DNA of 64,000 bases from Micromonospora sp. HM5-17. GTDB lineage: Bacteria; Actinomycetota; Actinomycetes; Mycobacteriales; Micromonosporaceae. The translations under genes were made by a program, and so were the position numbers. This document shows positions 9,826 through 28,233 of this stretch, one piece after another. The stretch spans positions 124,001 through 188,000 of the forward strand of contig NZ_RJWA01000004.1 in the NCBI RefSeq assembly GCF_003762835.1, read 5' to 3'. The first letter of the stretch is position 1, and each line of letters opens with the position of its first letter. The notes below the pieces were generated by a model. It had not been told where the DNA came from. It did no database searches and saw nothing but the letters and a program-made list of their open reading frames with translations.

Positions 9826-11196
9826 ATGCAGCAGAGCAGCCTCGACGTGACGACGACGAATGCCTCGGCGCCCCGGGACGCGACGTGGCGGGCGGCCGGC
9901 GCGGACCTGCGTACGGCCGAACTGCACGCCAGCGTCGCCGACCCGGTGCTCGACACGATGAACTTCCTGAACGAGATCACCCTCCGCTACCCGGATGCCA
10001 TCTCCTTCGCCCCCGGGCGTCCGTACGACGGCTCCTTCGACGTGGAGGCGATAATCGGGCACCTCCGTCGGTATCTGCGGCACCTGGCGGCGCAGGGCCA
10101 CTCGCCACGGCAGCTCCGCGACGCGCTCTACCAGTACGGCCCCACGGCGGGTCAGATCCGTGAGCTCATCGCCGCGTCGCTGGCCACGGACGAGGGAATC
10201 GACGTTCCGCCGGAGTCCATCGTGGTCACCGTCGGCAGCCAGGAGGCGATGCTGCTGGTGCTGCGGGCGCTGATCTCCCAGCCGGAGGACGTCCTGGTCG
10301 TGGTCAGCCCCTGCTACGTCGGGATCACCGGCGCGGCCAGGTTGCTGGACGTCCCGGTGGTCGCCGTGCCGGAGCGCGCGGAGGGGCTGCGCTGTACCGA
10401 CGTCGAGGCGGCGGTCCGGGCCGAGCGGGCCCGGGGTCGGCGTCCCCGGGCGTGCTACGTCGTCCCGGACCACTCCAACCCGTCCGGCAGCACGCTCTCC
10501 CAGCGGGATCGGGCGGACCTGCTCGCCCTGGCCCGGCGGGAGGACCTGCTCATCATCGAGGACAGCCCGTACCGGCTGGTCAGTCCCGGTACGCCGTTGC
10601 CGACGCTGAAGTCCCTGGACCGCGAGCGCCGGGTGATCCACCTCGGCTCGTACTCCAAGACCCTCTTCCCCGGCGTCCGCCTCGGGTACGTGGTGGCGGA
10701 CCAGCGGGTCGTCGACGAGACGGGCCGGGTGAGTCTGCTCGCCGACGCATTGGCCAAGATCAAGAGCATGGTGACGGTGAACACCTCGTCACTCAGCCAG
10801 GCGGTGGTCGCCGGCGCGCTGCTCGCCGCCGACGGGCGCGTCTCCGCGCTCAACGTCGAGGCGGCGGAGCGGTACGGCCAGGCGATGCGGGCCACCCTGC
10901 GGGAGCTGGAGCGGTGCTTCCCCGCGTCGCGCCGGGCGGAGTTGGGCGTGCGGTGGAACCGGCCGGACGGCGGCTTCTTTCTCACCATGCAGGTCGGGTT
11001 CCCGGCCGACAACGCCGCGCTGACCCGCTCCGCCGAGCGGTTCGGCGTCATCTGGACGCCGATGAGCTACTTCCATCCGGACGGCGGCGGCGGGCGCAGC
11101 CTGCGGCTCTCGATCAGTTACCTGACGTTGCCCGACATCACCGAGGGCGTGGCCAGGTTGGCCCGCTTCGTCGAGTCCGAGACCAGGCGGAGGTAG
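9826..11196 (+). CDS. hpgT: PLP-dependent aminotransferase, HpgT/Pgat-like
   Basis: 456 aa fold-type I aminotransferase of the MocR-associated/AAT class. ATG 9826 has AGGAG 11 nt upstream; an in-frame GTG at 9814 is the alternative. The PLP lysine is Lys278 in GSYSKTLFPGVRLGY, with the upstream YVVPDHSNPSGSTLS and IIEDSPYRL cofactor segments. Family knowledge: HpgT/Pgat enzymes convert 3,5-dihydroxyphenylglyoxylate (and the 4-hydroxy analogue) to the phenylglycine. No Hpg genes (HmaS, Hmo) are visible, and dpgA-D lie 4 kb away, so the likely product here is (S)-Dpg. It is followed after 2 bp by the MbtH gene. Confidence 0.82.
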   Translation: MQQSSLDVTTTNASAPRDATWRAAGADLRTAELHASVADPVLDTMNFLNEITLRYPDAISFAPGRPYDGSFDVEAIIGHLRRYLRHLAAQGHSPRQLRDALYQYGPTAGQIRELIAASLATDEGIDVPPESIVVTVGSQEAMLLVLRALISQPEDVLVVVSPCYVGITGAARLLDVPVVAVPERAEGLRCTDVEAAVRAERARGRRPRACYVVPDHSNPSGSTLSQRDRADLLALARREDLLIIEDSPYRLVSPGTPLPTLKSLDRERRVIHLGSYSKTLFPGVRLGYVVADQRVVDETGRVSLLADALAKIKSMVTVNTSSLSQAVVAGALLAADGRVSALNVEAAERYGQAMRATLRELERCFPASRRAELGVRWNRPDGGFFLTMQVGFPADNAALTRSAERFGVIWTPMSYFHPDGGGGRSLRLSISYLTLPDITEGVARLARFVESETRRR

Positions 11197-11198
11197 CA

Positions 11199-11429
11199 AT
11201 GCGGTCCGTGGTGTTTGACGTCGAGTCGGCCGAGGCCCGGTTCACCGTGGTGGTGAACCGGGAGGAGCAGTACGCGCTCTGGCCCGCCGACCTGCCCGTC
11301 CCCGGCGGCTGGTCGGAGGCCGGGTTCCGCGGGACCCTCCCGGAGTGTGAGGCGTACCTGGAGGAGACCTGGACGGACCTGCGGCCGAAGAGCCTGCGGG
11401 GCTGGCTCGCGGAGGTCGGCCGGGACTGA
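11199..11429 (+). CDS. MbtH-like protein
   Basis: 76 aa. All family hallmarks are present: NREEQYALWP, the PGGW segment, a single Cys in the LPECEAYLEETW stretch, and WTDLRPKSLR. MbtH-like proteins bind and activate NRPS adenylation domains; the only partner in this window is the A domain of the 23828-27280 module. ATG 11199 lies 2 bp after the aminotransferase stop with AGGCGGAGG just upstream, so the two are co-transcribed. The coupling of Dpg supply and NRPS activation in one bicistron suggests that the module needs it. Confidence 0.92.
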   Translation: MRSVVFDVESAEARFTVVVNREEQYALWPADLPVPGGWSEAGFRGTLPECEAYLEETWTDLRPKSLRGWLAEVGRD

Positions 11430-11448
11430 GCGCCCGGATGTTCCCGTC

Positions 11449-11481
11449 CGGCGGCCCGGGCACCCGGCGCTCGGGCCGCCG
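11449..11481. terminator. bidirectional hairpin between mbtH and the histidine kinase gene
   Basis: 10-bp perfect stem CGGCGGCCCG / CGGGCCGCCG with a 13-nt loop, in the 56-bp gap between convergent genes. Confidence 0.5.
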
Positions 11482-11485
11482 CGGG

Positions 11486-12721
11486 TCAGCCGGTCGAGCC
11501 GGCCGCGACCGCGTCCGCCTGTCGGGGGAGCGCCGCCGCGGTGTCGGGCCGGGGAAACCGCACGCTCACCTCGAGCCCGCCGCCCGGGTTCGGCCGGGCG
11601 GTGACGGTCGCGCTGTGGGCGCGGGCGATCGACGCGACGATGGAGAGCCCCAGGCCGGCACCGTCCACCGAGCCCGTCCGGTCGGTGTGCAACCGGCGGA
11701 ATGGTTCGAACAGCTCGTTGACCCGCTCCTCCGGCACCTCGGGGCCGGTGTTGCGGACGGTCAGGGTGTACCCGGCGAGCGAAACCTCGACGACGCCGCC
11801 CGGCCGGTTGTAGCGGATTGCGTTGTGCAGCAGGTTCGCGAAGAGCCGGTTCAGCAGGACCGGGTCGCCGGAGACGACGGTCGGCTCGGTCGTCAGGTGG
11901 ACGGTGACGCCGTCCGCCGGTACGTCGTTCCGGGCCTGCTGGATCAGCACGTCCAGGGCAACCGGCTCGGGCGCGTCCAGACCCCGGTCGCCCTGGGCGA
12001 GCGTGAGCAGGCCGTCGATCAGCCGCTCGGTCCGCCGGTTCACGGTCAACAGTTCCCGGCGTACCTCCGCCAACCGCTCCGGCGGCGGGTCGTCCAGCCC
12101 GATCTCGATCGCCGCGCGCTGGATGGCCAGCGGGGTACGCAGCTCGTGCGAGGCGTTGGCGATGAACTGCCGCTGGCTGCGGACCGACCGCTCCAGCCGG
12201 TCCAGCATCGCGTCGAAGGTGTCGGCGAGTTCCTTCAGCTCGTCGTCGGGGCCGGCGAGTGCGATCCGTTCGTGGAGGTTGGACAGGGAGAGCCGACGGG
12301 CGGTGGTGGTGATCCGGTGCAGCGGGCGCAGCAGCCGCCCGGCGAGCCACCAGCCGGCGGCGACGGAGACGGCGGTGAGCACGACCACGACGATCGCCGT
12401 CACCGTCCACTGGAACTGGAGAATGTCGTCGCGGAGGTTGTCGGTGACCTCGATGATCTCGGGCGTGTGCCGGATCGGCACCGGGGTTGGGGGGTTCTGG
12501 GGGACCGTGCCGGGCGGGGAGAGCACCTCCGGCGGCAACTGGTTGCTGTTTCTGATCAGCGTGACCCTCCGCTCCAGCATGTCGCGGAGCAACAGGTTCA
12601 CCACCACGAGCAGGGTCGTGGAGGTGGCGAGGAAGAGGGCGCTGTAGAGGGCGGTCAGGCGTACGCGTACGGTGCGGCGCGCTATAGCCGGTATCCGGCC
12701 CCAGGCACGGTCTCGATGCAC
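11486..12721 (-). CDS. two-component sensor histidine kinase
   Basis: 411 aa membrane kinase. Two membrane helices (about residues 22-44 and 104-127) flank a ~60-residue extracytoplasmic sensor. A HAMP linker (128-183) leads to the HisKA box with phospho-acceptor His192 (ASHELRTPLA) and a HATPase domain with the N box NLLHNAIRYN and G box GAGLGLS. ATG 12721 overlaps the response regulator gene by 40 bp; no later in-frame start precedes the first helix. Together with the regulator it resembles envelope-stress systems that control MacB-like pumps; the signal is unknown. Confidence 0.9.
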   Translation of the reverse strand: MHRDRAWGRIPAIARRTVRVRLTALYSALFLATSTTLLVVVNLLLRDMLERRVTLIRNSNQLPPEVLSPPGTVPQNPPTPVPIRHTPEIIEVTDNLRDDILQFQWTVTAIVVVVLTAVSVAAGWWLAGRLLRPLHRITTTARRLSLSNLHERIALAGPDDELKELADTFDAMLDRLERSVRSQRQFIANASHELRTPLAIQRAAIEIGLDDPPPERLAEVRRELLTVNRRTERLIDGLLTLAQGDRGLDAPEPVALDVLIQQARNDVPADGVTVHLTTEPTVVSGDPVLLNRLFANLLHNAIRYNRPGGVVEVSLAGYTLTVRNTGPEVPEERVNELFEPFRRLHTDRTGSVDGAGLGLSIVASIARAHSATVTARPNPGGGLEVSVRFPRPDTAAALPRQADAVAAGSTG

Positions 12722-13335
12722 GGAGGGTCTCCCAGCTTGCTGCGGAGTCTGCTGATGATCACGCGGACCACGCTGCTGAACGGGTCGACGTGCTCGTCCC
12801 AGGCGCTTTCGAGGAGTTCCTCCGCGCTCACCACCCGGCCCTCGGCACGCATCAACGTCTCCAGCACGGCGAACTCCTTCATCGACAGCGGCAGATAGCG
12901 GCCGTCGCGGAAGGCCTGCACCCGGTGGCTGTTCAGCACGATCCCCTTACGCTGCAGGACCGGGGGCAGCGGCGCCTGGCTGCGCCGGCCCAGGGCCTGC
13001 ACCCGGGCCACCAGTTCGCTGTAGTCGAACGGCTTGGGGAGGTAGTCGTCGGCGCCGAGCGTGAGCCCGGCGACGCGGTCCTGCACGGACGCCGCCGCGG
13101 TCAGCATCAGGATGCGGGTCCGGGCCCCGGCCTCGGCCAGCTCGCGGCAGAGCACGTCACCGTGCACCTCGGGCAGGTCGCGGTCCAGGACGAGTACGTC
13201 GTAGTCGTTCACCGCCAGCCGCTCCGAGGCGGCCGCCCCGTCGTACACCACGTCCACCGCCATGGCGTGCTTCCGGAGTCCCTCCGCCACCAGCTTGGCC
13301 AGCATCTGTTCGTCTTCGGCCACCAGAACGCGCAT
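12682..13335 (-). CDS. OmpR/PhoB-family response regulator
   Basis: 217 aa: receiver domain with acidic pocket (AEDE), phospho-acceptor Asp51 in VLVLDRDLPEVHG and the conserved Lys near 101 in LPKPF, then a C-terminal winged helix (RVVSAEELLESAWDEHVDPFSSVVRVIISRLRSKLG). Upstream of ATG 13335 the only good ribosome-binding site is AGGAGG, 12 nt away; an in-frame TGA excludes an earlier start. The 40-bp element at 13359-13398 sits 23 bp upstream and also precedes the efflux operon at 5909, suggesting autoregulation and control of that pump. Confidence 0.93.
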   Translation of the reverse strand: MRVLVAEDEQMLAKLVAEGLRKHAMAVDVVYDGAAASERLAVNDYDVLVLDRDLPEVHGDVLCRELAEAGARTRILMLTAAASVQDRVAGLTLGADDYLPKPFDYSELVARVQALGRRSQAPLPPVLQRKGIVLNSHRVQAFRDGRYLPLSMKEFAVLETLMRAEGRVVSAEELLESAWDEHVDPFSSVVRVIISRLRSKLGDPPCIETVPGAGYRL

Positions 13336-13358
13336 GCCCCATTGTCACCTCCTGGGTG

Positions 13359-13398
13359 GTATCAGCGCTGTTAACGCGGGCGTTCACCCTGCTGCAAC
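13359..13398 (+). promoter_or_regulatory. 40-bp conserved element, copy B
   Basis: GTATCAGCG-N2-GTTAAC-N6-GTTCAC-N5-TGCAAC, same spacing as at 5845-5884, in the upstream region of the response regulator gene. Read on the regulator's strand it includes GTGAAC and TGATAC separated by 17 nt, which could serve as a weak -35/-10 pair, so operator and promoter may coincide. The role is inferred from position and conservation. Confidence 0.6.
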
Positions 13399-13486
13399 AC
13401 CCGGCGCGGGAGGATCGCCCCGTGCGGAGCGGACCAGGTGACTGTGGGATCGCCCGGCAGGTGGCGTCGGTGGTGGGCCAGGGCGT

Positions 13487-13524
13487 CCGGGTCGCCCGGG
13501 AGGGACACCTCCCAGGCGACCCGG
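13487..13524 (-). terminator. terminator of the SARP transcript
   Basis: Long stem: CCGGGTCGCC pairs with GGCGACCCGG, and the inner GGGAGG pairs with CCTCCC around a GACA loop; one C/A mismatch joins the two helices. It lies 48 bp past the SARP stop codon and before the response regulator promoter. Confidence 0.65.
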
Positions 13525-13571
13525 CGTCCGGGCGACGGCCCGGGAGCGGGCACCCACCCCGGCGCGCACGC

Positions 13572-14396
13572 TCATCCGGCCGACGAGGGCAGCGTGAGGC
13601 TCGCCGGCGCGACCTGTTCGAGGATCGCCCGGTGCAGGTTCTGCAGCTCTCGTCCGGGCTCGATGCCCAGGTCCTCGCGCAGCCGGCGCCGGATCTGGGC
13701 GTACGCGTGCAGCGCCTCCGCCTGTCGCGCGCAGCGGTAGAGCGCGACCATGAGTTGGGCCCGGAGGGTTTCGTGGAACTGATGCATCGAGACCAGTTTC
13801 TTCAGCTCGGGCACGATCGTCCGATGGTTGCCCAGTTCGAGTTCGGCCGCGAAGAGGTCCTCGTACGCGGTGACCCGCTCGTCCTCGAGGAACCGGGCCT
13901 CCTGCTGGAGCAGCTTCCCGGGGATGCCGGCGAGCGCGTTGCCCCGCCACAGCGAGAGCGCGCTGCGGAGATCCCGGGCCGAACCGGCCAGGTCGCCGTG
14001 CTGGGCCTTCTCGCGGGCCTCGGCGACCCGGTCGCGGAAGGACCAGACGTCGGTCTCGTCGGGGTCGACCTGTAACCGGTAGCCGGCCGCGCTGGTGGTG
14101 AGTTCCACGCCGGTCATGGGCTGCAGCAACTGGCGGAGCCGGTAGATGTACGACTGGAGGGTGGTCTGCGCCGCGACGGGTGGTTGACCGTCCCAGACGA
14201 AGCGGGTGAGCCGCTCGACGGGTACCTCGTTGTTGGCGTCGAGCAGCAGGGTCACGAGGACGGCCCGCTGTTTGGGCGCTGTGATGGATATCCGAGTGTT
14301 GTTCGCGTTTACCTCGAGGCTGCCGAGAATGGCGAAGCGCAAGGTTGATCCCCCGTTTCTACGTGATCCGATGTTCACCCGGACAACGCTCTTCAT
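13572..14396 (-). CDS. SARP-family transcriptional activator
   Basis: 274 aa small SARP: N-terminal winged helix (FAILGSLEVNANNTRISITAPKQRAVL...), then a bacterial transcriptional activation domain (DVWSFRDRVAEAREKAQ to RRLREDLGIEPGRELQNLHRAIL). No ATPase domain, as in ActII-ORF4/RedD. ATG 14396 has AGGGGG 9 nt upstream; TTG 14342, with GGGGGAT 6 nt upstream, would give a more canonical N-terminus (257 aa). Leu108 is encoded by TTA (14073-14075), the rare codon linked to bldA tRNA control. It is divergent from dpgA and is probably the pathway activator. Confidence 0.9.
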   Translation of the reverse strand: MKSVVRVNIGSRRNGGSTLRFAILGSLEVNANNTRISITAPKQRAVLVTLLLDANNEVPVERLTRFVWDGQPPVAAQTTLQSYIYRLRQLLQPMTGVELTTSAAGYRLQVDPDETDVWSFRDRVAEAREKAQHGDLAGSARDLRSALSLWRGNALAGIPGKLLQQEARFLEDERVTAYEDLFAAELELGNHRTIVPELKKLVSMHQFHETLRAQLMVALYRCARQAEALHAYAQIRRRLREDLGIEPGRELQNLHRAILEQVAPASLTLPSSAG

Positions 14397-14739
14397 GCGA
14401 CGTATCCCCCTGTACGTCAGGTGATGTGTGACAGCCGGCCGTGGCCGGGCGGGGCGGGCGTCACATTGCGCGGAATGGCGGTGGGACGCGTGTCTCGCGG
14501 TGACGCGGCGACGGTGCCGGGCCGACCTGTCGACAAGTGTTGCTGGCGTGGCTAATGACTGGGCGCTGGAGCGACGCTGGCGTGGCGCATGGGTCTTCCC
14601 AGGTCATGGGTGATCGGGTCTGCGAATACCTGAAAGAATATCATCCGCGCCAATGCATGCCTCGTTCGTGTTGGCTGAGTCGGATGGGCTTTTCGGACGG
14701 TGACGGCTGAGCTGTGAGGGCCGTTTTGCCCCCGGTTGG

Positions 14740-14753
14740 GTTGTTGTAACAAC
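14740..14753. promoter_or_regulatory. palindromic operator candidate
   Basis: Perfect 6-bp inverted repeat GTTGTT / AACAAC around GT, in the SARP-dpgA spacer about 345 bp upstream of the SARP ATG. Candidate site for a dimeric regulator; no partner is identified. Confidence 0.35.
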
Positions 14754-15256
14754 GGTCGCTCGGGGCGATAGCCGGATATCGGACTCCGTTTCTGTCGGAA
14801 CACTTCCAGATCGAGTTCGGCGGCCGGCCTGATCACGTCGGCGGAGCGGGCCCCGCACGGGTCCGTCGGCCGGCCGCCCCCCGCGATGGCGGCCGGTGGG
14901 CGCGGCGGTGACCCGCCCCACGGCGTTCCGGCGGTGTCGCCGGCGGGTGCGGCTGGCGCACCGGTGGACGGAATCCGGCGCTGTACCGTACGCCGGGTGC
15001 GGGTGGCGAGGCCGTGATCTGGTGCGGCGCCCGCGTACCCGGCGGCCGCCGGCGACGCCGGTACCCGGCCGTTCGGAGTGGACGCGGGGCCGGGGCGGAC
15101 CGCCGTCGCCGACGGCACGACGGCCCGCCCGTCCCGCCGCACACGGATACGGCTCCAGTGATATTCCGACGGGGCTCCAGTGCGATACCGCGCCGTTTCC
15201 AGATGTGTCGTATTCGCGCATACCCGTTATGGTGCCGCACCCTGTCGGGAATCATT

Positions 15257-15287
15257 CTTGACGCGTCTTGACGGCTTCCGTTACGTT
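15257..15287 (+). promoter_or_regulatory. candidate dpg promoter with SARP-type heptamer repeats
   Basis: Two exact CTTGACG heptamers at 15257-15263 and 15267-15273 (10 bp apart) are followed, after exactly 8 nt, by TACGTT (15282-15287), a plausible -10. The first TTGACG also forms a -35 with an 18-nt spacer. Tandem heptamers ending 8 bp before the -10 are the textbook arrangement of SARP targets, although the usual period is 11 bp. Transcription would leave a ~300-nt leader before dpgA. Confidence 0.5.
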
Positions 15288-15598
15288 CCATGGCCGGAAC
15301 TCGGACGTGGTCGGGGAGATCGCATTTTGTCGGGTCGGCAACCGGTGCCGGCCGATCGGTCGACGGGGCAGAAGATATGCCCACGACAGTTTTTGGTGGC
15401 TCGTGCCGTCTGGGACCGGATCTTTGTTTCCGAGCGTGAGTGCTGGTGGGAAAGATTCGCTCCGATCCTGGGTGGGTTCGGCCAGTTCCGGTTCTGGTCT
15501 CCCTGTGACGTCGTACCAGTGGGAAGGTGAGTTGAATTGAGTGAGAAGGACACCGGGCGGCTGCTCGTCAAGGCACGCATGTGGGGGTGGACGTACCG

Positions 15599-16741
15599 AT
15601 GACGATCGAGGTCGACGTCCCCCGGTCGGAATTGCTGGAGACGGCTCTGCCGGTCGACCCGGGGCTACCCGCCATTTCCCGAATCGTCGGCGTCGGCACG
15701 GCGGTGTCGGAACGGTCCTATTCGCAGCGCGAGGTGCTCGACCGGTTCCGGGTCGCCGACCCGAAGGTCCGGTCGATCTTCCTCAACAGCGCGATCGAGC
15801 GACGGTACCTGACGCTGCCCGGGGTGGACGAGAACGGCGCCCCCCAGCCGGAGAGCCAGGGCGACCTGCTCGACAAGCACAAGCGGCTGGCCGTGGAGAT
15901 GGGAGCCCGGGCGCTGCTGGCCTGTCTGGACAACGCCGGCCGCCGGCTGTCGGAGATCCGGTACCTGTGCTGCGTGACCTCGACGGGCTTCCTCACCCCG
16001 GGGGTGAGCGCCCTGCTCATCCGCGAGCTGGGCATCGACCGGCACTGCGCGCGGGTCGACATCGTCGGGATGGGCTGCAACGCCGGCCTGAACGGGATGA
16101 ACGCGGTCGCGGGCTGGACCGCTGCCCACCCCGGCGAACTCGCCGTGATGGTCTGCACCGAAGCCTGCTCCGCCGCCTACGTCTTCGACTCCACGATGCG
16201 CACGGCGGTGGTCAACAGCCTCTTCGGCGACGGCGCCGCGGCGGTGGCGCTGGAGAACCGGGCGCTTGACGACCCGGTCGGACGGTCGGGCGGCGCCGCC
16301 GGGCCGCGGGTGCTCAAGTTTGCCAGCTGCATCATCACCGACGCCCTGGAGGCGATGCGGTACGACTGGGACCGGGCCCAGGGAAAGTTCAGCTTCTTCC
16401 TCGACCCGAACATCCCGTACGTCGTCGGCGCGCACGCCGGGATCGTGGCCGAGCGGCTGCTCGCCGGGACCGGGCTCCGGCTGAGCGACATCAGCCACTG
16501 GCTGATGCACTCCGGCGGCAAGAAGGTCATCGACGCGGTGATGGTGAACCTCGGGCTGACCCGGTACGACGTCCGGCACACCATCGACGTGCTGCGCGAC
16601 TACGGGAACCTCTCCAGCGGCGCGTTCCTGTTCTCGTACGAGCGGCTGATGCGTGAGGGCGTGACCCGACCGGGCGAGTACGGCGTGCTCATGACCATGG
16701 GCCCCGGCTCGACCATCGAGATGGCGCTGGTCCAGTGGTGA
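15599..16741 (+). CDS. dpgA: 3,5-dihydroxyphenylacetyl-CoA synthase, type III PKS
   Basis: 380 aa from ATG 15599 (GGGGGTGG 8 nt upstream; GTG 15581 is an alternative). A chalcone-synthase-fold enzyme with catalytic Cys160 in VGMGCNAGLNG, His304 in HWLMHSGGKK and Asn337 in DYGNLSSG. The DpgA-specific surroundings, not the plant CHS ones, are present. Family knowledge: DpgA condenses four malonyl-CoA to the precursor of 3,5-dihydroxyphenylacetyl-CoA, helped by DpgB and DpgD. It is first of the operon dpgA-B-C-D. Confidence 0.93.
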   Translation: MTIEVDVPRSELLETALPVDPGLPAISRIVGVGTAVSERSYSQREVLDRFRVADPKVRSIFLNSAIERRYLTLPGVDENGAPQPESQGDLLDKHKRLAVEMGARALLACLDNAGRRLSEIRYLCCVTSTGFLTPGVSALLIRELGIDRHCARVDIVGMGCNAGLNGMNAVAGWTAAHPGELAVMVCTEACSAAYVFDSTMRTAVVNSLFGDGAAAVALENRALDDPVGRSGGAAGPRVLKFASCIITDALEAMRYDWDRAQGKFSFFLDPNIPYVVGAHAGIVAERLLAGTGLRLSDISHWLMHSGGKKVIDAVMVNLGLTRYDVRHTIDVLRDYGNLSSGAFLFSYERLMREGVTRPGEYGVLMTMGPGSTIEMALVQW

Positions 16742-16761
16742 CGGCAGGGAGGCGGGACGAC

Positions 16762-18913
<2,152 letters not shown>

Positions 18914-18914
<1 letters not shown>

Positions 18915-19807
18915 TGAGCCCACGGGTCGGTGCCGGTCCGGCTGCCCCGGCCGGCGTCACCCCGGACGGGCGGGCCGGGTCCACCCCGGCCGCCCGGGCC
19001 GGTACCGACCCGGACCGGCCCCGGGTCCGGTACGAGAAGCGGGACGGCGTCGCGTGGGTCACCCTGGACCGACCGGAGGTGCTGAACGCGCTGGACGGCC
19101 GGACCCACGAGGAGCTGGCCGCGGTCTGGACGGACGTGGAGGCCGACCCGGAGGTGCGGGTGGCCGTGTTGACCGGTGCGGGCGATCGGGCCTTCTCGGT
19201 GGGGCAGGACCTGCGGGAACGGGTCCGGCTCACGGAGCAGGGCGCCGGCCCGTTCACCATCGGTAGCCGGGACCAGCCCGGCTGGCCCCGGCTCACCGAG
19301 CGCTTCGACCTGTCCAAACCGGTGATCGCCCGGGTCAACGGGTACGCCCTCGGCGGGGGCTTCGAACTCGTCCTCGCCTGCGATCTCGCCATCGCGGCCC
19401 GGAACGCCGTCTTCGCATTGCCGGAGGCGCGCCTGGGTCTGATCCCGGGTGCGGGTGGGGTGTTTCGGCTCGCCCGCCAGTTGCCGCTCAAGACCGCGAT
19501 GGGATATCTGCTGACCGGACGTCGCCTCAGCGCCGAGCAGGCACTGCGATTCGGCCTGGTGAACGAGGTGGTCGAGCCCGAGGACCTGGACGGGTGCGTC
19601 GCTCGGTGGGTCGATGACGTGATCCGGAGTGCGCCGCTTTCCGTGGCGGCAATCAAGGAATGTGTCCACCGTTCGCTCGACATGTCACTGGAACAGGCAT
19701 TCGCGACCCGGTACGTCTGGGAGGAGCGGCGGATGCGCAGCCAGGACGCCGTGGAGGGGCCCCGGGCCTTCCTGGAGAAGCGTCCACCGGTCTGGTCCGG
19801 ACGGTGA
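18914..19807 (+). CDS. dpgD: enoyl-CoA hydratase DpgD
   Basis: 297 aa canonical crotonase with a ~35-residue Ala/Gly/Pro-rich N-terminal extension. The oxyanion-hole motifs FSVGQDLRE and [22 protein letters not shown] and the catalytic-loop [12 protein letters not shown] are intact, so it should be an active hydratase/dehydratase. In Dpg pathways DpgD assists DpgA/DpgB in releasing 3,5-dihydroxyphenylacetyl-CoA. ATG 18914 overlaps the dpgC stop by 1 bp; last gene of the operon. Confidence 0.88.
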
Positions 19808-20264
19808 TACGCCGGGCCGCCCGGTGCCCCCGGGACGTCCATTTCGGCTCCAGCGTACGTCCAGCCCGGATCCGTATCGGGTCCACCAATTCTGCTTCAT
19901 TTCTACAAGCAAACACCTGCGTCATGTAAATGCCCGTCACGGGCTGCGGAATTGTCTGTCAAAAATGCGAGAGGCCTCTTGCGTCGCCGCGGTCGGCCAC
20001 CCTAGCATCAGATTTCGTAACCGGCGGTCGACGACGGTCGATCAAATGTGGAATTCCTGTGTGTCGCGCCCGTCGCGCCGGTGATTGACGCGCCTCGACA
20101 CGTCATCCGGAATCGTCCGGCTCGCCATCGCGGCGGTCGGTCGGGTGGCGGCCCGGGAGCCGGGTGGCGGGCGGCGAGGGTGCCGCGGCGTCCCCGGCGG
20201 GGCACCGGGGCCGAGGCCGGGCGAGTTCCGAGAGCAGCTCCAGGACCGAAAGGGTGGTGTGCCG
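19808..20264. other. intergenic region (457 bp) upstream of the exporter-TE-NRPS operon
   Basis: AT-enriched between about 19870 and 20080, then GC-rich. It contains two short palindromes (GCCCGT-C-ACGGGC at 19932-19944; AGAGGCCTCT at 19971-19980) and a heptamer pair at 20084-20100 resembling the one before dpgA. No gene is supported here; an in-frame extension of the exporter to 20085 lacks a ribosome-binding site and conserved content. Confidence 0.55.
20084..20100 (+). promoter_or_regulatory. second candidate SARP heptamer pair
   Basis: ATTGACG at 20084-20090 and CTCGACA at 20094-20100, the same 10-bp period as the CTTGACG pair before dpgA (13 of 17 bases identical across the two sites). 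No good -10 follows at 8 nt, so support is weaker. Confidence 0.3.
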
Positions 20265-22586
20265 ATGGGTGAGCCTGTGGGGCCGCGCCCGACGCGGGGT
20301 CCGGTTCCGGCCGGGAGGCCGGGTCCGGTGAAGGTCCCGGTCGGCGGGCCGATCAGGATCCCGGTGCCGGCGGGTGGCGCCCCGCCGGGAGACGTCCCGG
20401 TGGACGGTCCCGGACCGGTGCCGGTGGACGGTGCCGGTCCGACCGGCGGGCCGGTCGCGGCGCCGGTGGCGGATGCCCGGCCGGTGGGCGGACCGGTGCT
20501 GGTGGACGGTGCCGGCCCGGCCGAGGGACCCGTACCCGCGGGTGGCCCGGCGCCCGGCGCGGGACCCGGCCCGGCCGGGCCGCCGATGCGGGTGATGGGG
20601 CCGATGCGGCGGATCGGCGGAGGGCCGGGTGCGGCCTTCGGCGAGGGCCCGGAGATGGCGCAGGGCCCGGTCACCGAGGGACAGACCCGGTACGGCTTCC
20701 GCGACACCATACGGCTGGCCGCGTCCGCGCTCCGACTCGTCTGGGCGGCCGGCCGCCGCGAGCTGATCACCATACTGGCGATGGACGTCCTGCAGGCGGT
20801 CGCGGTCTTCTTCGTGATCATTCAGCTGCAGCGGGTCATCACCGATCTGATCATCCGGAACGAGGGGGGTAGCGCCTCCCAACTCTTCCTCAACATCGGT
20901 CTCTTCGTCGGCGCGAACATCCTGGTGGTGATCGCGCAGGCGGTGATCTCCAACCGGAGACCACTGCTCAGCGAACGGACCGCGATGTACGTCTGCGGCC
21001 AGGTCATCCGGGTCGCCAGCGCCGCCGAACTGGGCGACTTCGACGACTCCCGGTTCCACGACCGGCTCCAGCGGGCGGCGGCGAGCGCCGCCACCCGCCC
21101 CTCGATGCTGGTGCAGAGCCTGGTCATGATCGTCCAGGAGCTGATCGCGGCGGTCTCGATCTGGCTGGCCCTGGTCCTCATCGCACCGTGGATCGCGGTG
21201 GCCCTGCTGGTGGTGGTCGTCCCGGTGTGGATCAGCGGTGTGCGGGGCGGCGAGCACTTCTTCGGGTTCATCACCCGGATCACTCACACCGACCGCGGGC
21301 GCAACTACCTCTTCGGCCTGCTCACCAGCCGGGAGGCGGCCAAGGAGATCCGGGCGTTCAACATCGCCGGCTTCCTGGCCGAGCGCTGGCGGGCCTCGAT
21401 GGGCAAGCGGATCGACCTGCTGGCCGAGACGATGCGCAAGCGGATGCGGGCCTCGCTGCTCGGCTCGGTGGGGAGCAACGTGGTGATGGCGCTCGCGGCG
21501 GCGGCGCTGATCGCGATGAACCACTGGGGAATGCTGACGCTGGCCGAGACGGCGACCGTGGCCGGTGTCCTGATGATGTTCAGCCAGCGGCTGCTCCGGT
21601 CGGTCGCCATGGCCAACGACTTCTTCGAGTCGGCTCCGCTGGTCCGCGACCTCAACGAGTTCCTCGCGCTCGAACCGAGCCTGATCCGGACCAGGTCCGG
21701 CCTTCCCTTCGGGGGCGAGTTCGCGGAGATCGAGCTGGATAACGTCTCGTTCACCTACTTCGGCGCCGAACGCGAGGCGCTCCGCGACGTGTCACTGCGC
21801 ATCCGTGCCGGCGAGGTGGTGGCCCTGGTCGGGGAGAACGGCTCCGGGAAGACCACCCTGGCCAAGCTCCTCGGCGGGCTGTACGTACCGCAGCAGGGCG
21901 CGATCCGGATCGACGGGACCGACCTGCGGGAGATCGACACCGACAGCTGGCGGTCCGCGGTCGCGGTGCTCTTCCAGGACTTCATCCGGTACGCGCTGCC
22001 GGCGGGCGAGAACATCCACGTCGGCCGGACCACCCGGGAGCCGGTGCTGGAGGAGATCCGGGCGGCGGCCCGGGCAGCCGGTGCCGACGACTTCCTCTCG
22101 GCGCTGCCGGACGGCTACCGGACGATCCTGTCGCCGCAGTTCAACCGCGGCCAGGACCTGTCGCTGGGACAGTGGCAGCGGGTGGCGCTCGCCCGGGCGT
22201 TCTACCGGGACGCGCCACTGGTCATCCTCGACGAGCCGACCGCGTCGCTGGACGCCCGGGCGGAACGCGCCCTCTTCGACAGCGTGCGGGACCTGTACGC
22301 GAACCGTACCGTGCTGCTGGTCTCCCACCGGTTCGCCACGGTGCGCTCCGCCGACCGCATCATCGTGCTGCGCGACGGTCGGGTCATCGAGCAGGGCACC
22401 CACGACGAGCTGATGGCGGCGAACGGCCTCTACGCGGAGCTGTTCACCATCCAGGCCAGCGGCTTCGTCGACGCCGCGGAGGAGGACGACGATCCGGAGG
22501 CCTCGGGTGACCGGGAGTCCGGAGCCGTCGGCGAGCCGGGTGGGGCGCCCCGGATCGGGGCCGCGCCGGTTCAGGGGGGACGGTGA
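20265..22586 (+). CDS. ABC exporter (fused membrane and ATPase domains) with Pro/Gly/Val-rich N-terminus
   Basis: 773 aa from ATG 20265 (AAAGGGTGG upstream). Residues 1-140 are low-complexity, with repeated VDG[PA]GP and GGPV units, unlike normal ABC exporters. The membrane domain (about 150-470) has roughly six helices, followed by an ATPase with Walker A GENGSGKTT, Walker B LVILDEPTASLD and switch SHRFAT. The signature is LSLGQW instead of LSGGQ. Such half-size exporters occur in glycopeptide-type clusters. GTGA overlap with the thioesterase gene. It probably exports the Dpg-containing product. Confidence 0.88.
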   Translation: MGEPVGPRPTRGPVPAGRPGPVKVPVGGPIRIPVPAGGAPPGDVPVDGPGPVPVDGAGPTGGPVAAPVADARPVGGPVLVDGAGPAEGPVPAGGPAPGAGPGPAGPPMRVMGPMRRIGGGPGAAFGEGPEMAQGPVTEGQTRYGFRDTIRLAASALRLVWAAGRRELITILAMDVLQAVAVFFVIIQLQRVITDLIIRNEGGSASQLFLNIGLFVGANILVVIAQAVISNRRPLLSERTAMYVCGQVIRVASAAELGDFDDSRFHDRLQRAAASAATRPSMLVQSLVMIVQELIAAVSIWLALVLIAPWIAVALLVVVVPVWISGVRGGEHFFGFITRITHTDRGRNYLFGLLTSREAAKEIRAFNIAGFLAERWRASMGKRIDLLAETMRKRMRASLLGSVGSNVVMALAAAALIAMNHWGMLTLAETATVAGVLMMFSQRLLRSVAMANDFFESAPLVRDLNEFLALEPSLIRTRSGLPFGGEFAEIELDNVSFTYFGAEREALRDVSLRIRAGEVVALVGENGSGKTTLAKLLGGLYVPQQGAIRIDGTDLREIDTDSWRSAVAVLFQDFIRYALPAGENIHVGRTTREPVLEEIRAAARAAGADDFLSALPDGYRTILSPQFNRGQDLSLGQWQRVALARAFYRDAPLVILDEPTASLDARAERALFDSVRDLYANRTVLLVSHRFATVRSADRIIVLRDGRVIEQGTHDELMAANGLYAELFTIQASGFVDAAEEDDDPEASGDRESGAVGEPGGAPRIGAAPVQGGR

Positions 22587-23674
22587 CCAGCCAGCCGGCC
22601 GGGCGGGGGGTGCCGCCGGAATCCGCGTCGATCCCGGTGGGCCGCTCCTCCGCCGGCCGGCTGGCGATCCGGGGCCGGCCGGGGCCGGCCGGGAGGGGAC
22701 ATCGCTGGGGCCCGCCGGCCCCCGCGGGTCGGCCGGTCCACGCCGGCCCGCCGCTTTCCGCCGGTACGTCTCCCACAGGCCCGCGGCTCCCCGCCGTCCC
22801 GCCGTCTCCCGCCGGCCCGCCGGCCCCGGATCCGGTCGACGACGGGGTGCTGATCCCGATCCGTCGGGGGGAGCGCTTCCCGGCGGTCTTCGGGGTGCAC
22901 TCCTCCACCGGCGGGGTGGCCGAGTTCGTCACCCTGGCCCAGCAACTCGACGACGGGCAGCAGTTCTTCGGGCTCCAGTCCCGGGGGCTGCTCGGCGGAC
23001 CGCGGCCGGTCCCGACCGTGCCGGAGATGGCCCGGGACTACCTCGGGCAGGTACGGCGGGTGCAGCCGGTCGGGCCGTACCTCTTCGCGGCCTGGTCGAT
23101 GGGGGGCTACGTCGCGGTCGAGATGGCGCGGCAGGCGGCCGAGCGGGGCGACCGGGTCGGCGGCGTCTTCCTGATCGCGCCGCCGCACGACGACCGGTAC
23201 GGCCCGTGGCGGCGCTGGACGGGATGGCGGGCAGCCCGGAAGGTCCTGCGGAACCTGGACGACCGGATCGGGGCGGAGCCGGCCGAGGCGCCTCCGGGGC
23301 GGGAACTCCTGCCGTTGTGGGACCTGGACGAGGAGTCGTTGCCGGACCCGCTCGACGACGGCGTGGGCCTGCTCAGCGCGGAGGACCGGCAGCGGTTGCG
23401 GGTTGAGCGGACGAACCTGGTCAACGTCTGGGCCGGAATCCGCTACCGCGCGCGGCTGCGCCGGAGACTGCGCCCGTACGACCTGCGGGTCGTGCTCTTC
23501 GTGCCGCGCGACGACCCGGCGCGGGAGCGGCGCGACGCGGTCGCGCAGTGGCGAGGCGCGCTCCGGACCGAGCCCGAGGTGGTGTCCGTGCCGGGCGGAC
23601 ACGGCGACGTCCTGGTCGGGCCCGGGGCCCGGCTGATCGGGGCCCGGCTCCGCGCCGAGGTGGCCCGATGGTGA
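22583..23674 (+). CDS. stand-alone NRPS/PKS thioesterase
   Basis: 363 aa alpha/beta hydrolase. The first ~80 residues are Pro/Gly/Ala-rich; the catalytic part begins near IPIRRGERFPAVFGVHSSTGG. Nucleophile Ser172 in AAWSMGGY, a candidate Asp in VPRDDPARE and His343 in GGHGDVL complete the triad. The FFGLQSRGL stretch is more like a C-terminal releasing TE (EntF type) than an editing type II TE, suggesting a detached release domain for the adjacent NRPS, which has none (inference). GTG 22583 overlaps the exporter stop. Confidence 0.83.
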   Translation: MTSQPAGRGVPPESASIPVGRSSAGRLAIRGRPGPAGRGHRWGPPAPAGRPVHAGPPLSAGTSPTGPRLPAVPPSPAGPPAPDPVDDGVLIPIRRGERFPAVFGVHSSTGGVAEFVTLAQQLDDGQQFFGLQSRGLLGGPRPVPTVPEMARDYLGQVRRVQPVGPYLFAAWSMGGYVAVEMARQAAERGDRVGGVFLIAPPHDDRYGPWRRWTGWRAARKVLRNLDDRIGAEPAEAPPGRELLPLWDLDEESLPDPLDDGVGLLSAEDRQRLRVERTNLVNVWAGIRYRARLRRRLRPYDLRVVLFVPRDDPARERRDAVAQWRGALRTEPEVVSVPGGHGDVLVGPGARLIGARLRAEVARW

Positions 23675-23827
23675 CGGGTCCGGCCCACGACGTCGCGCTC
23701 GTGGTGACGAGGGCGACGGTGAACCACGGCGCCGCGCCCGGATCGGCGGCGGCGAGGTCCGCGGACCCCCGACCGGGCCGGCCGCGGCGGCAATTGCCCG
23801 AAGCAAGTGACTGGCGAGGGTGGGTGT

Positions 23828-26800
23828 GTGCAGGTGACGGTCTCTCCTTCTGAACTTCTTGGCGACCTCGAGGGCCGGGGTGTTCGCCTCTACCTGGCCG
23901 AGGACCAGCTCCGGGCGCTCGCCCCGAGGAACGTCCTCACCGAGGAGTTGCGGCAGCGGATCCGGGACAGCCGGGAGGCGCTGATCGAGCTGCTGCGGCG
24001 GCGGGCCAGCCAGGCTGACCTCATGACGGCCCCGCCGATCCGGGTGGCGGGCCGGGACGGGGTGCTGCCGCTGTCGTTCGCGCAGCAGCGCCTCTGGTTC
24101 CTGGCCCAGCTCGACCCGGACTCGGTGGAGTACAACATGCCGATGCCGGTGTGGTGGGAGGGCGACCTCGACCGGTCCGCCCTCGCCCGGGCCCTGGAGA
24201 CCCTGCTGGAGCGGCACGAGGTGCTGCGAACCCGGCTGGTCGAGGGGCCCGACGGGGTGGCCTGCCAGGTCATCGACCCGCCGCCCCGGGTGGAGCTGCC
24301 GGTGGTGGACGTCTCCGCCGAGCCCGACCCGACCGCCGCCGCGCAGGCCCTGATCGCCCAGGACGGCGCGGTGCCGTTCGACCTCGCCACCGGGCCACTG
24401 ATCCGGGCCCGGCTGATCCGGGTCAACGACCGCGAACACGTCCTCGCGCTCTGCGTGCACCACGTGGTCTTCGACGAGTGGTCGTCCGGGATCTTCCGGC
24501 GCGAACTGGGAGAACTGTACGACGCGTACCGGACCGGACGCCCGCCGAGGCTGCCGGAGCTGCCGGTGCAGTACGCCGACTTCGCGGTCTGGCAGCGGGA
24601 GTGGCTGACCGGCGAGGTGCTGGAACGGCAGTTGGAGTACTGGCGCAAGACCCTGGCCGGTGCCCCGGTTCTGGAACTGCCGACCGACCGTCCCCGACCG
24701 CCGGTGCGGTCGTCGGCGGGTGCCTCGGTGGAGTTCGAGGTGCCGGAGCGGGTGGTCGAGGGGCTGCGGGCGGTGACGCGGACCGCGGGCGCGTCGATGT
24801 TCATGACGCTGTTCAGCGCCTTCGCCGTGCTGCTCAGCCGCTACAGCGGCCAGGACGACGTGGTGATCGGCACCCCGATCGCGAACCGGAACCGGGCGGA
24901 GATCGAGGGGCTGATCGGGTTCTTCGTGAACACCCTGGTGCTGCGGACCGACCTCTCCGGCGACCCGACCTTCGCCGAGCTGCTTGGCCGGGTCCGGGAG
25001 GTGGCGCTGAGCGCGTACGCCCACCAGGACGTGCCGTTCGAGTCCGTCGTGGACGCGCTCGGGGTCAAGCGGGACCGGTCCCGGACCCCGTTGTTCCAGG
25101 TGATGTTCAGCTACGCCCAGGGCGGCGGGGCCCGGGCCGACGCGGAGGGCCCGGTAGGTCCGGTCGCGCCGGCCCGGCCCACCCCGGCCGAGGGCGGGGA
25201 CGGGCACGCCCCGAAGCCGGTCAAGTTCGACCTGGCGTTGGCCTTCGGGGAGACCGGTGGCGGCGGACTCGCCGGCGGCCTCCAGTACGCCACCAGCCTC
25301 TTCGACGCCGACCGGATCGACCGGCTGGTGCGGCACCTGCTGGTGCTGCTGGAGGCGATCGCCGCCAATCCGCACCGGCGGCTCTCCCAACTGCCGCTGC
25401 TGACCGCCGAGGAGCTGGCGGAGCTGGACCGGTGGAACAGCGCCACGGCCGAGGTCCCGGCGGTCGGCGGCGTACACGAGCTGGTCGCCGCCCAGGCGGC
25501 GGCCCGGCCGGACGCGGTGGCGTTGCGCTCCGCGGGGGTGTGGCTGAGCTACGCGGAACTGGAGGCCCGGGCCAACCGACTGGCCCGCTACCTGCGGCAG
25601 GTCGGCGCGGCCCGGGAGGATCTGGTCGGGCTCTGCCTGCCGCGCGGCATCGACATGGTGGTGGCGGTGCTGGCGGTCTGGAAGGCGGGCGGCGCGTACG
25701 TGCCGATGGACCCGCAGTATCCGGCGGACCGGCTCGGCTACATGCTGACGGACAGCGGCGCCCGGTTCCTGGTGGCGACCGCGGAGACGGTGCGCACCCT
25801 GCCGGCCGGCGCGGTGCCGGCGGAGGTCCGGGTTCTGGTGCTGGACGACGCGGAGGTCCGGAGCGCGCTGGCGGAGCTGCCGGCCGACCCGGTCGGGCTG
25901 ACGGTCTCGCCGGACCAGGCCGCGTACGTCATCTACACCTCCGGCTCGACCGGTCGACCCAAGGGAGTGCAGGTCAGCCACCGGGGAGTGGTGAACCTGG
26001 CGGTCGCGATGCAGCCGGTGCTCGGGGTGACCGCGGGGACGGTGGCACTCCAGTTCGCCTCGTTCAGCTTCGACGCGGCGGTGCTGGACATGGCGGTGGT
26101 GCTCGCCAACGGCGGCACCCTGGCGATCGCCACCGCGGCCGAGCAGGCCGAGCCGGGCGCGCTCGCCGCGATGATCGCCGACAACGGGGTGCAGACGGCC
26201 AGCGTGGTGCCGTCGCTGCTGGCCGTGCTCGATCCGGACCAGGTGCCCGGGGTACGCAACTGGGTGGTCGGCGCGGAGCGGTTGTCCGCCGGGCTGGCCC
26301 GTACCTGGGCCTCCCGGGCCCGGTTGTGCAACACGTACGGGCCGACCGAGGCCACCGTCATCACCACGGCGGTGCCGCTGACCGTACCTGACGGGGATCC
26401 GGAGCAGGACCCGCTCCCGCCGATCGGCGCGCCGATCGCGAACACCACGGTCCGGGTGCTGGACCGTTCCCTGCGCCCGGTGCCGGTCGGGGTGACCGGG
26501 GAGATCTACATCGGTGGTCCGGGCGTCGCCCGGGGCTACCACCGCCGGCCGGCGTTGACCGCGCGGCACTTCGTGCCCGACCCGGTCGCCGCCGACGGGT
26601 CCCGGCTGTACCGCTCCGGCGACCTGGGCCGGTGGCGCGCGGACGGGCAGCTGGAGTTCCTCGGCCGGGCCGACAACCAGGTCAAGGTCCGGGGATTCCG
26701 GATCGAGCCGGGGGAGATCGAGCACGTCCTGCGGACACATCCCGGAATCGCCGCGGCCGTGGTAATCGCGGACGGCGAGGGGGAGGACCGTCGGCTGGTC

Positions 26801-27280
26801 GGCTACCTCGTTCCGGCCGGCACCGATGGGCCGCCGCCCATCGCGGAGCTGCGCGACTTCCTCCGGGAACGGCTGCCGGAGTTCATGGTGCCGGCGGTCT
26901 TCGTCCCCCTGGACGCGCTGCCGCTCGGGCCGAACGGCAAGCTGGACCGCGCCGCGCTGCCGGTTCCGGACGGGGCACGGCTCGGCCCGGTCGGCGTCTA
27001 CGAGGCGCCCCGGAACGCCACCGAGGAGCTGCTCGCCGGGATCTGGGCCGAACTGCTCAAGGTGGAGCGGGTCGGGGTGCACGACAACTTCTTCGACCTC
27101 GGCGGCCACTCGCTGCTGGCCACCCAGGTGATGTCCCGGGTACGGGCCATCTTCGACGTGGAGATCCCCCTCGCCACGCTCTTCGACCACCCCACCATCG
27201 CCGGGCTGGCGAAGGTGATCAACCAGCCCGTGCTGGAGGCGAGCGGTGGCCAGGAGGGGCTCGAGGAGTTCCAGCTGTGA
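23828..27280 (+). CDS. single-module NRPS (docking-C-A-T)
   Basis: 1150 aa from GTG 23828 (GAGGG 7 nt upstream; 23807 and 23834 are alternatives). Domains: TubC-type N-terminal docking (about 4-56), condensation (70-490; active site HHVVFDEWS at 211), adenylation (540-1040; TSGSTGRPKG at 704, YGPTE, A10 NGKLDR) and thiolation (Ser1095 in LGGHSLLAT). No TE, E or second module. Specificity residues aligned by eye to PheA read D-A-L-S-V-G-T-V-I-K; Dpg as substrate is a contextual guess. The docking domain implies an upstream partner not in this window. Confidence 0.92.
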   Translation: MQVTVSPSELLGDLEGRGVRLYLAEDQLRALAPRNVLTEELRQRIRDSREALIELLRRRASQADLMTAPPIRVAGRDGVLPLSFAQQRLWFLAQLDPDSVEYNMPMPVWWEGDLDRSALARALETLLERHEVLRTRLVEGPDGVACQVIDPPPRVELPVVDVSAEPDPTAAAQALIAQDGAVPFDLATGPLIRARLIRVNDREHVLALCVHHVVFDEWSSGIFRRELGELYDAYRTGRPPRLPELPVQYADFAVWQREWLTGEVLERQLEYWRKTLAGAPVLELPTDRPRPPVRSSAGASVEFEVPERVVEGLRAVTRTAGASMFMTLFSAFAVLLSRYSGQDDVVIGTPIANRNRAEIEGLIGFFVNTLVLRTDLSGDPTFAELLGRVREVALSAYAHQDVPFESVVDALGVKRDRSRTPLFQVMFSYAQGGGARADAEGPVGPVAPARPTPAEGGDGHAPKPVKFDLALAFGETGGGGLAGGLQYATSLFDADRIDRLVRHLLVLLEAIAANPHRRLSQLPLLTAEELAELDRWNSATAEVPAVGGVHELVAAQAAARPDAVALRSAGVWLSYAELEARANRLARYLRQVGAAREDLVGLCLPRGIDMVVAVLAVWKAGGAYVPMDPQYPADRLGYMLTDSGARFLVATAETVRTLPAGAVPAEVRVLVLDDAEVRSALAELPADPVGLTVSPDQAAYVIYTSGSTGRPKGVQVSHRGVVNLAVAMQPVLGVTAGTVALQFASFSFDAAVLDMAVVLANGGTLAIATAAEQAEPGALAAMIADNGVQTASVVPSLLAVLDPDQVPGVRNWVVGAERLSAGLARTWASRARLCNTYGPTEATVITTAVPLTVPDGDPEQDPLPPIGAPIANTTVRVLDRSLRPVPVGVTGEIYIGGPGVARGYHRRPALTARHFVPDPVAADGSRLYRSGDLGRWRADGQLEFLGRADNQVKVRGFRIEPGEIEHVLRTHPGIAAAVVIADGEGEDRRLVGYLVPAGTDGPPPIAELRDFLRERLPEFMVPAVFVPLDALPLGPNGKLDRAALPVPDGARLGPVGVYEAPRNATEELLAGIWAELLKVERVGVHDNFFDLGGHSLLATQVMSRVRAIFDVEIPLATLFDHPTIAGLAKVINQPVLEASGGQEGLEEFQL

Positions 27281-27317
27281 CCGCCGGTGGTCGGTGACCG
27301 CCGGCACCCGGGCGGAC

Positions 27318-27352
27318 GCCGTGGCGACGTGCCGCCGGTACGTCGCCACGGC
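27318..27352 (+). terminator. terminator after the NRPS gene
   Basis: Perfect 13-bp stem GCCGTGGCGACGT / ACGTCGCCACGGC with a 9-nt loop, 37 bp after the NRPS stop and before the GNAT start. It probably ends the exporter-TE-NRPS transcript. Confidence 0.65.
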
Positions 27353-27382
27353 CGACCCGGGCCGACACCGATGGGAGCGGCG

Positions 27383-28211: not shown

Positions 28212-28233
28212 ACTCTGTGCTGGTCGTCCAGGG

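Follow-up and report, generated by a model that had tools for sequence, protein, structure and literature searches.

A stretch of 64,000 nucleotides of contig C34 (NZ_RJWA01000004.1) of Micromonospora sp. HM5-17, referred to below as the window, carries a compact gene cluster that, to judge from its sequence, should join a complete pathway for 3,5-dihydroxyphenylglycine (Dpg) to a single nonribosomal peptide synthetase (NRPS) module. The known sources of Dpg are glycopeptides and a small number of long peptides. Our preferred reading, held tentatively and with a rough probability of 0.42, is that this cluster is intact, that its NRPS is a minimal Dpg-oligomer synthetase, and that the product would be small and Dpg-derived. 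The parts named in the first-pass annotation of this DNA (dpgA to dpgD, an HpgT-like aminotransferase, MbtH, a SARP-type activator, an exporter, a stand-alone thioesterase (TE) and one module with condensation (C), adenylation (A) and thiolation (T) domains) were all recovered intact by profile searches and homology. The precursor, NRPS and release features are:

9826–11196, + strand, HpgT-type aminotransferase, predicted to make Dpg from dihydroxyphenylglyoxylate (PF00155)
11199–11429, + strand, MbtH-like protein (PF03621, 65.6 bits, over the cut-off)
15581–16741, + strand, DpgA, type III polyketide synthase (NF042429, 642.5 bits, cut-off 425)
16735–17472, + strand, DpgB, diverged enoyl-CoA hydratase fold (PF00378), with homologues in all 41 of the other dpgA loci that were fetched
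17469–18914, + strand, DpgC, dihydroxyphenylacetyl-CoA dioxygenase (NF042432, 709 bits, cut-off 530)
18911–19807, + strand, DpgD (NF042430, 444 bits, cut-off 400)
22583–23674, + strand, stand-alone type I-like TE (PF00975)
23807–27280, + strand, single-module NRPS, in the order docking domain-C-A-T-tail (PF18563, PF00668, PF00501, PF13193, PF00550)
23852–23998, + strand, TubC_N (beta-hairpin) docking domain, NRPS residues 16–64 (PF18563, 42.4 bits, cut-off 26)
27245–27277, + strand, C-terminal NRPS tail GGQEGLEEFQL, docking-motif-like and fitting the tail motif given below

The Dpg pathway and the proposed mechanism

The route to Dpg through DpgA to DpgD and HpgT is established chemistry of these families, and DpgA, DpgC and DpgD of the window all exceed the NCBIfam equivalog cut-offs. 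The aminotransferase is named HpgT by no model in the NCBIfam library; it is 71% identical to its counterparts in G047 and G235, whose NRPSs are of the glycopeptide type. Homologues for comparison came from a dpgA survey of 300 genomes drawn from a larger family, which gave 46 other dpgA places over the cut-off; 41 of these loci were fetched, at 16–48 kb each, one of them from the HM5-17 genome itself and some ended by contig ends, the places at G172:C55, G221, G257, G077 and the second one in G112 being left out. Near-invariant columns among these homologues are retained in DpgA (111 of 113), DpgB (30 of 30), DpgC (85 of 85), DpgD (96 of 99) and the aminotransferase (85 of 86), in the C (20 of 20), A (37 of 37) and T (6 of 6) domains, and, with fewer homologues to compare, in the TE (31 of 34, 4 homologues) and the MsbA-type exporter (53 of 57, 6 homologues). 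Together with the open frames, this retention speaks against decay of the predicted genes without proving activity.

In the proposed mechanism DpgA, DpgB and DpgD would convert malonyl-CoA to 3,5-dihydroxyphenylacetyl-CoA, DpgC would convert that to the glyoxylate and the aminotransferase would yield Dpg, which the A domain, with MbtH, would load onto the T domain. The N-terminal beta-hairpin domain of one NRPS copy would take the C-terminal motif of another, and the module would thereby elongate on itself to a short oligo-Dpg chain; the TE would free a linear or cyclic product, an acetyltransferase at the right end of the cluster may acetylate it, the MacAB-type and MsbA-type exporters would remove it, and the SARP and a two-component system would control the whole. 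That the NRPS is, more narrowly, a natural one-protein iterative synthetase, a self-docking module whose product is an oligomer of Dpg alone (a poly-resorcinol peptide), freed by a trans-acting TE split from a terminal module, we consider somewhat unlikely. A minimal cluster that serves one module with a full Dpg pathway would make Dpg chemistry available from an easily expressed source; with it one could also test whether one NRPS protein can iterate on itself by docking.

Substrate of the adenylation domain

The A domain probably activates Dpg, as its code and closest relatives suggest. Its ten-residue code, at positions that we take to be those of the Stachelhaus scheme, is DALSVGTVIK; in a tree of 131 readable A domains (drawn from dpg loci, from the genome G044 or from HM5-17 itself, some rows being the same domain repeated) it groups, with a support of 0.993, with DALSVGTVMK from contig C232 of G044 and DALSLGTVMK from two modules of G082. 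Both of the latter modules share the same 60 kb with dpgA-D, and a partial A domain on G044:C235, 69% identical to that of the window over 203 residues, reads SVGTVMK. The window code has G301 and T322 in common with glycopeptide-type Dpg modules; Hpg (4-hydroxyphenylglycine) modules carry G301 and L322 (GLLCK). The Dpg-type codes in question, from G047 and G235, are DPYHGGTLCK in the last module and DAFNAGTMCK and DAYNLGTLCK in a single-module protein, where the division of modules and codes between Dpg and Hpg is our assumption and where seven A domains were read in G235 and six in G047, up to the end of the fetched stretch.

The trio S278, G301 and T322 occurs in nine distinct A domains (the window, two in G082, G044:C232, L122 of Actinomadura sp. 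DC4, G003, G042, G297 and G298), all of them at dpg loci except the G044 one, which comes from a dpg-bearing genome; nearly the whole set of A domains comes from dpg loci, so this distribution is no test of specificity. Four NRPS-rich control genomes, one of which (G031) encodes a DpgA-like protein that narrowly misses the cut-off, gave 102 A-domain matches, the best at 53% identity (identities only, codes unread), and full-length matches with other codes in G044 reach 56%, so that identity alone does not single out Dpg-type domains. The pattern D-[AN]-L-S-x-G-T-V-x-K is a possible second Dpg code, which would aid the prediction of other clusters.

Docking domain and putative docking tail of the NRPS

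The NRPS carries no TE or epimerization (E) domain in a Pfam scan and has a docking domain at its N-terminus and a docking-like tail at its C-terminus, which the first-pass annotation did not mention; by its architecture it would work either inside a chain of subunits or iteratively, by docking onto itself. PF18563 finds no TubC_N domain but this one in the HM5-17 genome and has no match on the TE or the acetyltransferase of the window; 41 of 150 family genomes have at least one match. At 13 of 30 TubC_N loci examined, a carrier domain is encoded no more than 1.5 kb upstream. The motif E/D-x-[hydrophobic or G]-x-[LIFVM]-COOH ends eight of the 13 carrier-ending proteins upstream of TubC_N proteins, as it does this NRPS, and 5 of 1239 background open reading frames (ORFs; this NRPS left out), although the motif was derived post hoc from these very tails, which include several from related strains, so that the counts describe and do not test. 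It agrees with the published structure of such a pairing: according to the accessible part of a review (PMC9113145), the last five residues of the tail add a strand to the beta-hairpin domain, one face of which is charged and the other hydrophobic.

Single-module rhabdopeptide NRPSs with both docking elements are thought to be iterative, according to the available portion of PMC6195595. These rhabdopeptide/xenortide (RXP) enzymes, as far as the accessible text of PMC6195595 and PMC9872161 goes, share with the window protein the single C-A-T module with an N-terminal beta-hairpin domain (here from PF18563 and the domain order); they also have a short C-terminal docking motif, to which the window tail may correspond. 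They differ in working as two to four proteins with a terminal C domain, whereas the window has one subunit, with no second cooperating subunit or terminal C domain found in it, a free TE and a dedicated Dpg pathway.

Several points weigh against the oligomer reading. In addition to the post hoc definition of the motif, 5 of the 13 tails upstream of TubC_N proteins do not fit it; the six tail/domain pairs of the rhabdopeptide system include one whose interaction was unproductive, and this is a self pair, that of Kj12A (PMC9113145, accessible part); and a single-sequence AlphaFold model of the NRPS, with a mean pLDDT of 36, is uninformative on docking. The donors considered for the docking domain were NRPS ORFs with C domains, and polyketide synthases (PKSs) or free carrier proteins encoded elsewhere in the genome, a 6.17-Mb draft in 51 contigs that is 96% complete, could also donate. 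As to the substrate, G301 and T322 are also found in A domains of other kinds (DTEDIGTVVK on contig C50 of HM5-17, and DILQSGTMYK in G172 and G282). An HmaS-like gene, at 41–42% identity, is present in both G044 and G082, the code that these two share with the window could in principle serve Hpg, and the G044 contigs with that code (C232 and C235) are not joined by the assembly to its dpg contig. DALSVGTVIK was found in no paper, by a search that also missed a well-known Dpg code and is therefore powerless.

Relatives of the NRPS and of the gene set

By the comparisons made here, the closest kin found of the NRPS appear to be large synthetases of another genus (G044 and G082) and not those of glycopeptides. 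Its C domain scores 400–555 bits against many G044 C domains and at most 317 bits in the other loci compared; against the C domains of G047 and G235 it scores 82–104 bits, and 196–197 against the C-like domain after the last module. A remnant of a glycopeptide cluster was rejected as the origin of the NRPS, since, of the domains compared, those of the G044 synthetases come nearest to its C and A domains; the precursor genes nonetheless resemble those of glycopeptide loci. The TE's closest relatives found are the C-terminal TE domains of terminal modules of G044 NRPSs (46–48% identity in one comparison and 43–45% in another), and the idea of a conserved separate TE gene upstream of the G044 NRPSs was rejected for that reason.

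The closest gene set elsewhere is that of G044:C180, where the SARP (58%), the MsbA-type ABC exporter (57%), MbtH (64%), the aminotransferase (66%) and DpgA-D span 54–69% identity to those of the window, and which includes a multi-module NRPS; contig C181 of the same genome measures 608 bases. The multi-module synthetases near dpg genes in G044 and G082 thus have the closest A-domain code and clade, and G044 is also like the window in its SARP, both exporter types, MbtH, TubC_N domains and TE relatives; the two differ from the window in their many modules, in a TE fused to the last module (G044), and in the presence of StrR-like, beta-hydroxylase and HmaS-like genes. Judged by the C domain, the TE and G044:C180, the cluster in the window resembles a reduced relative of these synthetases. 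The first-pass annotation had treated conserved clusters with further NRPS genes at this site in relatives as counting against its reading, and the outcome is mixed: at this site nothing matching was seen in six congeners (in G104 on the right side only), but the closest gene set elsewhere, that of G044:C180, does include a multi-module NRPS.

The TE, acetyltransferase and NRPS of the window were not found together in the 41 other dpgA loci, nor in 10 loci with DpgB from a GTDB scan by exact peptide patterns, which may miss kin. No compact one-module Dpg cluster was met in the open literature searched (subscription papers, preprints and supplements were outside its reach). The lipopeptide loci META-B of Xanthomonas albilineans hold dpgA-D, hpgT, MbtH and an ABC transporter outside glycopeptides, and their presumed Dpg signature is unlike those listed, according to the accessible part of PMC3849588; on the same partial description they differ from the window in their long multi-module lipopeptide synthetases, an AraC regulator and another phylum. 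A further lead, PMC8698034, was set aside as irrelevant, DPG being a phospholipid in the portion available.

Alternative explanations

The mechanism and ALTERNATIVES can be read in several ways: the sole TubC_N domain found, with its motif-fitting tail, can fit a self-docker, a chain remnant or the partner of an unlinked carrier. The second of these would be a larger Dpg (lipo)peptide synthetase that has lost its starter and other NRPS genes, has kept the docking-domain module and the TE and now makes little or nothing. Against it, the earliest start available to the TE overlaps the end of the exporter gene (the true start may lie later), the NRPS begins about 130 bp past the TE end, third-position G+C is 0.88–0.95 in eight genes (aminotransferase, kinase, regulator, SARP, DpgA, exporter, TE and NRPS), and the genes are open with most or all near-invariant residues retained, no search having been aimed at gene fragments. 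A remnant is unlikely in our view, while it would account for docking ends like those of an inner subunit, for a TE whose nearest kin found are domains fused to terminal NRPS modules, for a closest gene set (G044) that is large and multi-modular, and for an HM5-17 genome of 6.2 Mb against 8.3–9.8 Mb in six congeners. Intactness and operon layout favour use, and the docking ends and the TE kin favour descent from a larger system; the two can be compatible in a cut-down synthetase with a new, smaller product. The complete Dpg cassette, the single NRPS module and the lack of glycopeptide tailoring and linked Hpg genes in the first-pass annotation stand, and its small product of no known class is left less secure, as the docking ends and the kin in G044 and G082 allow a formerly larger system.

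A Dpg amide would result if the C domain joined Dpg to an acyl or aminoacyl donor on a carrier protein encoded elsewhere, such as a PKS, a free acyl carrier protein or the NRPS on C50. The docking domain implies a carrier-bound donor, and donors can be unlinked; five C domains were found in the HM5-17 genome, one in this NRPS and four on C50, where the NRPS region has an apparent aryl-acid A domain that may belong to a siderophore. The C50 NRPS ORF ends do not fit the docking motif, a carrier domain was found on the NRPS only among the 14 insert ORFs scanned, and the C domain seems by its best matches to be of the ordinary aminoacyl-donor type; we consider such a conjugate about as unlikely as a remnant. 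Least likely of all is an A domain that takes Phe, Tyr or another aromatic residue, with Dpg used elsewhere or as a free acyl unit: the A domains of the window, G044:C232 and G082 are nested as a group inside a Phe/Tyr-type clade and the powerless literature search found no published entry for the code, but that code departs from the Phe/Tyr codes of its neighbours at the Dpg-module positions G301 and T322, and the insert that encodes this A domain also holds the dpg genes.

Glycopeptide features

The window shares DpgA-D and HpgT homologues with the glycopeptide Dpg cassette (balhimycin, vancomycin and teicoplanin types), and it has an MbtH protein and an MsbA-type exporter, both of which we take to be usual in glycopeptide clusters; the glycopeptide-type loci G047 and G235 also hold a single C-A-T Dpg-type protein. 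Glycopeptide clusters differ in their seven-module NRPS, P450s, glycosyltransferases, linked Hpg genes and StrR, and the window NRPS is not of glycopeptide descent by the comparisons above. The first-pass annotation had described the cluster as having no large NRPS, P450s, glycosyltransferases or Hpg genes, and Pfam, motif and query searches of the insert and the window agree with it. No P450 (Oxy P450s included) or glycosyltransferase family matched the 14 insert ORFs, and the P450 haem motif is absent from all six frames of 5.5–28.3 kb. At an E value of 1e-10 nothing in the window matched queries for HmaS, a StrR-type regulator, beta-hydroxylase, halogenase, antiporter, DAHP synthase or prephenate dehydrogenase, and no linked Hpg genes were found there. 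A seven-module NRPS ending in X-TE is likewise absent, with one module in the window and the five C domains found in the genome. The HPPD family has one over-cut-off match in the genome, on C51, and a weak match of 39.6 bits on C34, at a distance of more than 70 kb from the window.

Borders and other genes of the insert

The cluster lies in an insert beside a tRNA gene. Both flanks (up to about 5567 and from about 28100) are present in five of six congeners and only the right one in G104; DNA matching 5.57–28.1 kb was found at the homologous site in none of the six (right side only in G104), and 7.7 to 31 kb of other DNA lies between the two flanks where both are present. The cluster is therefore a lineage-specific insertion, and its site, a variable one, adjoins tRNA-Arg (28232–28305, next to the right end of the insert). 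No integrase family matched the 14 larger insert ORFs, which were those covered by the Pfam scan, and dpgA is present elsewhere, in different surroundings, in three congeners (G058, G092 and G104). The insert and its remaining genes are:

5567–28098, strand. (none assigned), lineage-specific insert between an SDR gene and tRNA-Arg, with flanks conserved and the insert unmatched in congeners
5866–7476, + strand, MacA-like adaptor with a peptidoglycan-binding domain, ORF start over-extended (PF01471)
7473–8183, + strand, ABC ATPase of a MacB-type exporter (PF00005; 60–64% identity at dpg loci G203, G213 and G044)
8180–9376, + strand, MacB/FtsX permease (PF02687, PF12704; 51–59% identity at dpg loci G213, G203 and G044)
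11486–12721, − strand, sensor histidine kinase (best NCBIfam match VanS-O, 174.6 bits, cut-off 720)
12682–13335, − strand, OmpR-type response regulator (best NCBIfam match VanR-O, 230.4 bits, cut-off 505)
13572–14396, − strand, SARP-type activator (PF03704, 150.7 bits)
20265–22586, + strand, MsbA-type ABC exporter with a Pro/Gly-rich N-terminal stretch, start set by eye (PF00005)
27287–27919, + strand, RimJ/RimL-type GNAT acetyltransferase inside the insert, ORF start over-extended (PF13302)

The borders of 9826–27280 in the first-pass annotation proved too tight, the MacAB-type exporter (5866–9376) lying to their left and the GNAT (27287–27919) to their right. The MacA-like adaptor has homologues at dpg loci in G044 and G213 (43–44% identity) and G203 (36%), and homologues of the whole trio are contiguous in G203 and G213 and scattered in G044. 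Because such relatives (36–64% identity) occur at dpg loci in these three genomes, the MacAB-type genes are probably cluster members, and the predicted cluster probably starts near 5.87 kb. It may end at 27.9 kb with the GNAT, whose membership may be read from its position and which has no match in the 41 other dpgA loci. The kinase and regulator pair (11486–13335, − strand), absent from the first-pass annotation, was rejected as a VanRS self-resistance pair since the VanR-O and VanS-O scores are far under the cut-offs; vanHAX was not searched for.

The window GNAT is 28% identical to a GNAT of G044 with an N-terminal TubC_N domain (L204:14871-15605, that is G044:C111:34871-35605), which is encoded 3.7 kb downstream of a large NRPS without a TE that has the docking-like tail GEEYETFEF. 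The accessible part of the review lists beta-hairpin docking domains on C, E, heterocyclization (Cy), TE, methyltransferase (MT), reductase and halogenase proteins, GNATs not being among those named there (PMC9113145).

Other dpg loci

The HM5-17 genome has a second, different set of dpgA-B-C, aminotransferase and divergent dpgD genes (region of G000:C12:505647-506699), 42–65% identical to those of the window; it adjoins genes for an O-methyltransferase, an MFS exporter and a propeller-amidohydrolase, and no C or A domain was detected nearer than about 20 kb. A divergent dpgD is also seen at G003:C1:2.036 Mb (L060/L061), G157:C6 (L083/L084) and G260:C1 (L107/L108), where the aminotransferase is 48–50% identical and no NRPS C or A domain was found within 20 kb; G285 (L097/L098) has the same arrangement with an NRPS nearby. 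An NRPS-free type of Dpg cluster may exist. Loci without an NRPS within 20 kb were not counted as NRPS-free, as two of them, G047 and G235, carry theirs further out. The dpgA loci of G057, G172, G226, G269 and G282 have DpgA and DpgB beside C-domain proteins, with other genes in common too; T-C proteins are present in at least four of them, DpgC has no match within 20 kb in G057, G226 and G269, and these loci are perhaps a distinct conserved cluster type.

Short GC-rich tandem repeats with periods of 10 to 42, mostly multiples of three, are found in the window at 18837–19033, 20397–20649 and 22669–22828; they encode Pro/Gly/Ala-rich stretches and fall where DpgC meets DpgD and near the N-termini of the MsbA-type exporter and the TE.

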